Positions 22,963 to 26,446 of a stretch of DNA of 28,600 nt are shown piece after piece. Made by a program: the position numbers and the translations under genes. Below the pieces are notes generated by a model. The model saw only the letters and a list, made by a program, of their open reading frames with translations, was not told the origin of the DNA and searched no databases. Location of the stretch: IMG/VR virus record IMGVR_UViG_3300044695_004231, positions 1-28,600 of that record, one strand, 5' to 3'. The number at the start of each line of letters is the position of its first letter. Position 1 is the stretch's first letter. The DNA is from a virus.

Positions 22963-23017
22963 AAAATGTAGTTGTTTGTGGAAGAGCAGCGTTTATTTTT
23001 CAACATTCTTGCTTTAG

Positions 23018-24854: not shown

Positions 24855-25080
24855 ACATATCAATTGTGACATGTAAAGAAAAGGCTAATCTTTTTACTTG
24901 ACTCATATAGTGATTATTTGTTAGGTTTACACCGAACAGGGGCAAAAACAACAGGGTAATAATAACAACTAATTATTACTTTATATTATTAAAGCAAGGT
25001 ATACTAAAGTTAGGCAAGTTATCGCCAATTGATAACTTTAAAGGGGCATAGAACAAGGTAGAAAATATGTGTAGGGACCC
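24855..25080. other. AT-rich noncoding stretch with an inverted repeat
   Basis: About 225 bp without a credible gene, first part of the 577-bp gap between helicase and the gene at 25365. It includes an AT-only-like run (about 24970-25000) and a perfect 8-bp inverted repeat, AAGTTATC-7 nt-GATAACTT (25016-25038), with no T tract behind it. This could be an operator or part of a replication origin when taken with the next block. No clear promoter is seen, only a weak TATACT at about 25000. Confidence 0.4.
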
Positions 25081-25086
25081 CCACGT

Positions 25087-25150
25087 AACTAGGTGGTCGC
25101 TCTGACAGATCACCACCCCCCCCTACCCAGGCTACCCCCCACCCCTAGTT
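25087..25150. other. C-tract block with G-quadruplex potential inside an inverted repeat
   Basis: Four C runs of 8, 3, 6 and 4 bases (25116-25145), with short loops of 2, 6 and 1 bases, meet the usual G3+N1-7 rule on the minus strand. The block lies inside the inverted repeat AACTAGG (25087-25093) / CCTAGTT (25144-25150), with a second pair GGTGGT / ACCACC nested within. It is very unlike the AT-rich surroundings. Possible origin, terminus or transcription-pausing element; function unproven. Confidence 0.5.
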
Positions 25151-25158
25151 GACCTTCG

Positions 25159-25212
25159 GCTCGCTACGCTCGCCTCGGTTGCTCCGCTACCATCGCTCGC
25201 TTCGCTCGCTCC
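25159..25212. repeat. GC-rich TCGCT repeat cluster
   Basis: Several short copies of TCGCT or CGCTCGC occur within 54 bases (GCTCGCTACGCTCGCC, then TCGCTCGCTTCGCTCGCT). Such clusters occur as iterons but also as general low-complexity sequence in phages and plasmids. No gene covers it. Confidence 0.4.
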
Positions 25213-25238
25213 GGTGCTACGTGTAGGACGCTTGAACC

Positions 25239-25261
25239 GTTACGTGGTTAAACTACGTTTG
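25239..25261 (+). repeat. 23-bp repeated promoter/operator motif, copy 2
   Basis: Core CGTGGTTAAACTACG (25243-25257), then TTTG, giving TACGTTTG (25254-25261), a perfect TAnnTTTG. It lies 61 bases upstream of copy 3, same orientation. Confidence 0.75.
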
Positions 25262-25299
25262 CTTCACCAATGTGTTACGCCCAGACACAATGCCATAGT

Positions 25300-25322
25300 G
25301 TTACGTGGTTTAACTACGTTTG
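25300..25322 (+). repeat. 23-bp repeated promoter/operator motif, copy 3
   Basis: Core CGTGGTTTAACTACG (25304-25318), then TTTG, giving TACGTTTG. The next ATG (25365) is 43 bases downstream. A short hairpin follows immediately. Confidence 0.75.
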
Positions 25323-25341
25323 GTAAGGGAAAGTCCTTTAC
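25323..25341 (+). promoter_or_regulatory. Leader hairpin before the gene at 25365
   Basis: GTAAGGGA-3 nt-TCCTTTAC forms an 8-bp stem with one G-T wobble. It is right after copy 3, so a transcript starting there would begin with this hairpin, a layout that may stabilise the mRNA. Confidence 0.4.
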
Positions 25342-25364
25342 ATCACAATAACTTGGAGACCGCA

Positions 25365-25613
25365 ATGGAAATCGCATTTGGATTACTCGCACTAACACTA
25401 GTCGGTGTTATCGCCTATCTCAGCATCAAGCTCGAGTCGTTCGAGGTTGAAGTCAAGGTGCTCAAGGAATACCTCGACAATGCCAACGGAGAAATCTCCC
25501 TATGCTACGACGAGCTATGGGAAACCCGACAGATGTGCAATGCTATATCACAACAACGTAATGATTACTTCAAACAACTCAACGAACTGTCGTCCGAGAT
25601 AGCTCGAAGCTAA
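25365..25613 (+). CDS. Small membrane coiled-coil protein with C-ending codons (82 aa)
   Basis: I place the start at ATG 25365 because GGAG lies six bases upstream; the frame is open from a TTG at 25320, but that falls inside repeat copy 3. The protein has an N-terminal membrane helix (about 2-21) and a charged coiled coil (about 24-80). Codons favour C endings and CTC/ATC, unlike the AT-rich neighbouring genes, which suggests recent acquisition or different expression demands. It is preceded by two copies of the repeated motif and followed by two stem-loops. No family is recognised. Confidence 0.55.
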   Translation: MEIAFGLLALTLVGVIAYLSIKLESFEVEVKVLKEYLDNANGEISLCYDELWETRQMCNAISQQRNDYFKQLNELSSEIARS

Positions 25614-25646
25614 TCAGTGTTCTCTCCACTGGTTATCGGACGATAT

Positions 25647-25702
25647 TACGTACATTGGAGGCGGAGGTGCTACCTCCAAAGCTTCCGCTTCCTTTGTACG
25701 TA
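25647..25702 (+). ncRNA. Candidate structured element: long stem-loop A
   Basis: The arms 25647-25668 and 25681-25702 pair over about 20 positions (TACGTACA with TGTACGTA, then GGAGGCGG with CCGCTTCC plus further pairs), interrupted by one TT/TT mismatch and a few wobbles. An alternative inner hairpin GGAGGT-3 nt-ACCTCC exists. There is no T tract, so it is not a standard terminator. It begins 34 bases after the stop of the gene at 25365-25613. Could be part of a noncoding RNA, an mRNA stability element or an origin. Confidence 0.45.
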
Positions 25703-25703
25703 T

Positions 25704-25782
25704 CAATACAGGACAAAACCGATGCGTGGTAGTTACGCTAAGTATTCTATGTGCCGATATTTCAGCCATAGGTCCTGTATTG
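25704..25782 (+). ncRNA. Candidate structured element: stem-loop B
   Basis: A perfect 11-bp inverted repeat, CAATACAGGAC (25704-25714) with GTCCTGTATTG (25772-25782), closes a 57-base loop that contains a small GCGT/ACGC hairpin. It starts one base after stem-loop A and ends five bases before repeat copy 4. Together, A and B fill most of a 266-base gap that lacks a convincing gene. Confidence 0.45.
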
Positions 25783-25787
25783 TCGTT

Positions 25788-25810
25788 GTTTCTTGGTTTA
25801 ACTACGTTTG
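25788..25810 (+). repeat. 23-bp repeated promoter/operator motif, copy 4
   Basis: Core CTTGGTTTAACTACG (25792-25806), one change from the others, then TTTGG, giving TACGTTTG (25803-25810). It faces the gene at 25880, 70 bases downstream. Confidence 0.7.
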
Positions 25811-25879
25811 GTTTGGTGGTGTTCGCCAGACCGTATTCTTCCACAGGGCATATCGCCCACACCTAGAAAGGGTCCTACC

Positions 25880-26404
25880 ATGGACGCAACAACAACAGCA
25901 CCTACATCTATCGCAACGATGGTGCATCTCCTACCAACAGCCACAATCTTTGGCGAAAAGGTAGACACAATTCTTACCAATCTGTTCAAGTATGTGAAGC
26001 CCAAAGCCGTCGAGCTTGCTTCAGGACTTGCAGATATGGTCCTCGAGTTCGATACCAATCGTCTCATCCATATCGACCAGAAGGTAGCAGTGCAATTCGC
26101 TCTGACAGACCTTCTGTACAGCAAAGGTATGGTCAATGAAAACGGTACGCCAAGACTGTTCTCCCCAGTCACAATACCGTTTCATATTTCGCCCGAAGAT
26201 GGTGTCCCTGAGACACAACTTCGTGTATACTTCTACCGCAAGCCAGCGAACAGCAGCGATCCTCGCCCACAAGCGACGATTATGCTACGCCTCGAGCGTT
26301 TCGGCACGGAGTATAAGTTCGACACGCAGTCGAAGTACGGTGCAAAGGCAGTCGCTAACGCTCCTGCCGAGGCAACCGAGGCTAACGCCCCGTTTGCCGA
26401 GTAA
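25880..26404 (+). CDS. Hypothetical protein (174 aa), high-GC codon use
   Basis: I choose ATG 25880 because GAAAGGG lies seven bases upstream; an upstream TTG at 25808 falls within repeat copy 4 and lacks such a site. The protein has a Thr/Ala-rich N-terminus, a helical segment (about 27-55), a beta-rich centre with IPFHISPEDGVPE and LRVYFYRKP, and an Ala/Glu-rich acidic tail (about 155-174). No signal peptide or membrane helix is seen. Codons prefer C and G at third positions, like the gene at 25365 and unlike the rest of the window. It has its own copy of the repeated motif and is followed by a strong hairpin. No family is recognised; an acidic tail can occur in DNA-binding proteins, but there is no further support. 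Confidence 0.6.
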   Translation: MDATTTAPTSIATMVHLLPTATIFGEKVDTILTNLFKYVKPKAVELASGLADMVLEFDTNRLIHIDQKVAVQFALTDLLYSKGMVNENGTPRLFSPVTIPFHISPEDGVPETQLRVYFYRKPANSSDPRPQATIMLRLERFGTEYKFDTQSKYGAKAVANAPAEATEANAPFAE

Positions 26405-26415
26405 CAATACGCAAA

Positions 26416-26446
26416 CCCCTGCATGCCAACCCACGGTGTGCAGGGG
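26416..26446 (+). terminator. Strong hairpin without a T tract
   Basis: CCCCTGCATGCC (26416-26427) pairs with GGTGTGCAGGGG (26435-26446) over 12 positions with two wobbles, around a 7-base loop. It lies 12 bases after the gene ending at 26404. The next bases are not T-rich, so it may be an mRNA 3'-end stabiliser or a factor-dependent stop instead of a standard intrinsic terminator. Confidence 0.45.

Follow-up and report, generated by a model that had tools for sequence, protein, structure and literature searches.

The early mRNA of bacteriophage T7 is cut at five RNase III sites of the R1.1 type, R1.1 being a 60-nt RNA with an irregular stem of about 49 nt (PMC4858673, PMC8708148). We have analysed two adjacent stem-loops, A and B, that lie between early genes in the genome of a virus from a small uncultured clade. 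Stem-loop A resembles the T7 sites, which are hairpins of about 50-60 nt, in having an internal loop, in lying between early genes, in spanning about two helical turns and in having no U tract. The likeness is one of structure, and no relationship of the phage to T7 was seen. Intrinsic (Rho-independent) terminators are likewise found at the end of a gene and, as here, ahead of a new promoter-like repeat, and one relative of the phage has such a terminator at this place, but A and B themselves lack the U tract. A third comparison is with hairpins in the 5' leaders of early phage mRNAs. A local hairpin that the conserved core of stem A can form resembles these in being promoter-proximal in two relatives (L008 and L032), whereas the core described here has no promoter-like motif directly upstream and is absorbed into a longer stem.

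The window, by which we mean the whole stretch of 28,600 nucleotides analysed, is a 28.6-kb virus record with head, tail and portal genes on the minus strand. The early block is on the plus strand and comprises genes for an ERF recombinase and the DnaB helicase and small genes, followed by the terminase region. Searches with DnaB and the portal protein retrieved only the small uncultured clade, made up of near-identical strains of the window, the relatives L007, L008, L032 and L011, and a few fragments (L033 denotes the locus of the L007 phage). Annotated phages contained no homologue of the DNA of the region or of the portal, plasmids contained no homologue of the DNA of the region, and a search of genome contigs gave distant DnaB only. 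The features that concern us here are the following.

25304-25322, plus strand: copy 3 of the promoter-like repeat, preceding the small gene
25365-25613, plus strand: upstream small gene, 82 aa, with a weak match to an Rz-like spanin family (E 1.5e-4)
25644-25680, plus strand: core element (TATTACGTACATTGGAGGCGGAGGTGCT...), homologous to L008 7181-7217, L032 3736-3772 (minus strand) and L033 4970-5006
25647-25702, plus strand: stem-loop A, 8 bp, a 2x2 internal loop, 12 bp (G.U pairs counted) and a 12-nt loop
25655-25679, plus strand: local hairpin with arms UUGGAGG...CCUCCAA and loop AGGUG, an alternative to stem A with which it is mutually exclusive, and which also forms in L008 and L032
25704-25782, plus strand: stem-loop B, a perfect 11-bp basal stem around an interior that branches into two small hairpins
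25792-25810, plus strand: copy 4 of the promoter-like repeat, preceding the 174-aa gene
25810-25832, plus strand: hairpin immediately after repeat copy 4
25880-26404, plus strand: downstream gene, 174 aa, function unassigned, with 45% identity in L007 and homologous DNA in L008 and L032
Repeat sites in relatives: L033 4556, 5014 and 8751; L008 6773, 6881, 7167 and 8710

Stem A contains 20 pairs over a length of 22 positions, and its predicted stability alone is -32.4 kcal/mol (z -7.9 versus dinucleotide shuffles), which makes it the most stable of all plus-strand hairpins of up to 81 nt in the window. Stem B alone reaches -28.3 kcal/mol (z -4.7, again versus dinucleotide shuffles), and the spacer between the two is the single base 25703. 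When A and B were folded jointly, -62.2 kcal/mol was obtained compared to -34.6 kcal/mol in shuffles (z -7.8), and none of 200 shuffles equalled this value. A preliminary description of the locus, made from the letters of the sequence, had counted about 20 paired positions in A and had placed a perfect 11-bp inverted repeat in B at one base from A; the former count was borne out and the latter proved exact to the base. However, at least one 11-bp inverted repeat within 80 nt was also present in 17 of 40 shuffled windows. The repeat of stem B alone is thus not rare, although the complete fold of B is, and the evidence beyond chance lies in stem A and in the joint fold. That the gap holds no plausible gene was likewise upheld, as the open reading frames across it gave no significant family match and no recognisable gene. 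A coding reading of the core, the frame of which reads Y-[IFL]-G-G-G-G-[AV], was rejected because it has neither a start codon nor a family match, and also because its frame relation to the neighbouring genes varies among the relatives.

The two stem-loops differ in what they reveal about the strand. Stem A favours plus-strand RNA because its G.U pairs work in that strand only, the corresponding minus-strand RNA reaching -25.1 kcal/mol. Stem B is about equally stable on either strand (-28.3 kcal/mol plus, -29.3 kcal/mol minus) and so gives no strand evidence. The asymmetry of stem A is the best sign that it acts as RNA. The earlier suggestion of a transcribed structured RNA is plausible, with the asymmetry of stem A and the directional repeats upstream of early genes in its favour, and with no strand preference from B.

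These repeats, CGTGGTTTAACTACGTTTG with at most one mismatch, occur in four copies in the window (20859, 25243, 25304 and 25792), all on the plus strand, where none is expected by chance. They are near-palindromic, their counterparts in L008 read ATATAT[TC]AC, and from their position they look like promoters or regulator sites. A and B are located between copies 3 and 4, as had been reported, and any transcript that passes through them most likely originates at copy 3. The hairpin immediately after copy 4 probably forms part of the 5' leader in the transcript that follows. At 11 sites in the clade the repeats tend to be followed within a few bases by a hairpin, with a mean of -11.1 kcal/mol over 50 nt compared to -8.0 kcal/mol over 50 nt at control positions (P about 0.005). 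Stronger hairpins after the repeats of the clade support an RNA-hairpin style of gene boundary.

The DNA on the upstream side of the gap has further features of its own. Repeat copies 2 and 3 pair together into a strong hairpin (25242-25319, -31.2 kcal/mol). The noncoding stretch 24892-24970 after dnaB (TTGACTCATATAG...GGTTTACACCGAACAGGGG) is 82-84% conserved in L008, L011 and L007 and is a candidate for the main early promoter or an origin. Between 25100 and 25220 a C-rich tract is followed by GCTCGCTTCGCTCG-like repeats, and L007, L008 and L011 have a C-rich tract at the same place.

A very stable joint fold with a compact modular shape and a branched interior in B, in a gap without a coding gene, is what might be expected if A and B together were a discrete, structured noncoding RNA about 140 nt long. 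Such an RNA, transcribed from a promoter of its own or released from the small-gene transcript by cleavage, would act in trans, e.g. as a decoy or as antisense RNA. A scan with a promoter-like matrix, which was built from the repeat copies of the window and L007 and represents the phage motif, gave no site immediately in front of stem A, where the best score was 2.7 compared to 22-25 for true copies. The covariance models of Rfam 15 gave no match to A or B at the gathering score, the best relaxed matches being far below threshold, and the A and B structure is absent from the relatives. We therefore regard a separate noncoding RNA as unlikely, and nothing shows A and B to be a new class of noncoding RNA. 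Among the functions proposed earlier, an mRNA processing or stability element fits best, and there is no specific evidence for either an anti-defence decoy or an origin.

No U-rich tract directly follows stem A or stem B, in agreement with the preliminary description, and neither was called in a terminator scan that found canonical U-tract terminators on the same strand at 23016, 24822 and 27043. As U-tract terminators are thus present in other parts of the phage genome, A and B seem to be a signal of a different kind. A rival reading is that of a U-less transcription terminator, Rho- or NusG-assisted or bidirectional, that insulates repeat copy 4. It would be in line with the canonical terminator that L007 carries in the same gap, before its 174-aa homologue (L033 4950-4974, stem GCCCTACTTCGGTAGGGT plus seven T), with the T-rich DNA 3' of stem B (TCGTTGTTTCTTGG), and with a 12-bp hairpin after the 174-aa gene (26416-26446) that is also U-less, its place being taken in L007 and L032 by U-tract terminators. 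On the other hand, the scan called three same-strand terminators but not A or B, and the base of stem B is A-T rich, unlike that of intrinsic terminators. On balance we find a terminator improbable.

In L008 (8662-8711) and L032 (2562-2611) the boundary in front of the 174-aa homologue is formed by a U-less two-turn hairpin consisting of 8 bp, a 4x4 internal loop and 9-10 bp, and this hairpin directly abuts the promoter-like repeat that belongs to this homologue. The L008 hairpin has a z of -6.4, the differences between L008 and L032 fall in the loop, and its stem has the same length as stem A of the window, 22 positions. An intercistronic hairpin of about two turns, usually with an internal loop, was taken as the mark of an RNase III signal, and stem A, with 22 positions and a 2x2 loop, is of this form.

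The two other strain records of the window have no changes in the A and B region and only three changes over 1.25 kb (25146-26401), coding DNA included, whereas the same strains differ by 2.5-3% outside this interval, which looks like a recently exchanged tract. The unchanged state of A and B in near-identical strains was consequently rejected as evidence for selection, since the whole tract, coding parts too, is nearly unchanged. The complete A and B structure is confined to one lineage, the strains of which are identical there, and has no diverged homologue.

The core, on the other hand, is shared. Its 25 letters CGTACnTTGGnGGCGGAGG, which supply stem A with its 5' arm, are common to the window, L007, L008 and L032, and in the three relatives the core lies in the gap behind the first small gene after dnaB. 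In the alignment of the core element from the window, L008, L032 and L033, 22 of 38 columns are invariant. The flanking DNA is barely alignable, and to judge from this alignment the core is therefore likely to be under selection. Matches to the core pattern were also obtained outside the clade, but most of them appear to come from glycine-rich coding DNA and were not accepted as homologues. In the local hairpin one pair is changed between the window and L008, from A-U to U-A. This is the one compensatory pair among three distinct sequences, and it is not significant, 174 of 500 shuffles being as good. By energy, a two-layer G-quadruplex (GGnGGCGGAGG) is possible in L007 and L008, while stem A is predicted to win in the window. 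A sigma-54-like reading of the core (TGGC-N7-TTGCA, L033 4986-5000) was discarded as it fits L007 only, and not the window or L008.

In L007 the linear core is kept although the local hairpin is lost, and it is situated downstream of the terminator, which is difficult to reconcile with the core acting simply as RNA. The same arrangement, together with the location of the core near the terminase genes, would suit a DNA site, i.e. a regulator-binding, packaging or replication signal, with the hairpins being incidental or cruciform. We hold this also to be unlikely, as the pairing of stem A in the window depends on G.U pairs and these are of no help in DNA, and as the core is present in a single copy in the window with no further copy in the clade loci searched. 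It is very unlikely that CGTACnTTGGnGGCGGAGGnG, the core, acts as a clade-specific control element, in RNA or in DNA, that in the window would switch between the small hairpin with the conserved AGGUG loop and stem A, and in this way couple the small gene to the next gene.

L008 (7184-8700) and L032 (3750-2620, minus strand) have an accessory block of small early genes that extends from the core to the boundary of the 174-aa gene. The first gene of the block, right after the core, differs between L008 and L032 by presence or absence, and the block is a possible site of counter-defence cargo. This block is missing in the window, and its absence has brought the core up against the boundary hairpin. 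From the same difference A and B might be suspected to be a decaying, functionless remnant of the leader and the end of a lost accessory operon. However, such strong pairing would be expected to decay in the absence of selection, and 20 pairs still hold, which renders a remnant extremely unlikely.

The explanation that we tentatively put first is that A, with or without B, is an RNase III-processing or 3'-end-protecting element at an early transcript boundary. The observations in its favour are the structure itself, stem A with its strand asymmetry, the position, the conserved core and the other boundary hairpins in relatives. According to this explanation a transcript would start at repeat copy 3, pass through the small gene and continue into A and B. 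Stem A, a two-turn, U-less hairpin with an internal loop, may then serve as the processing or 3'-end-protecting hairpin. It would provide the small-gene mRNA with a defined, exonuclease-resistant 3' end and keep it distinct from the next unit, in which the 174-aa gene is preceded by repeat copy 4 and by a leader hairpin of its own. As regards its history, the 5' arm of stem A probably descends from the conserved element that constitutes the leader hairpin of the accessory operon in L008 and L032.

Early transcripts in this small uncultured clade thus seem to be bounded by hairpins together with promoter-like sites that recur, one and the same boundary being marked by a U-tract terminator in one relative and by U-less two-turn hairpins in others. 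If true, mRNA would be processed in the T7 manner in an unrelated group of phages as well.
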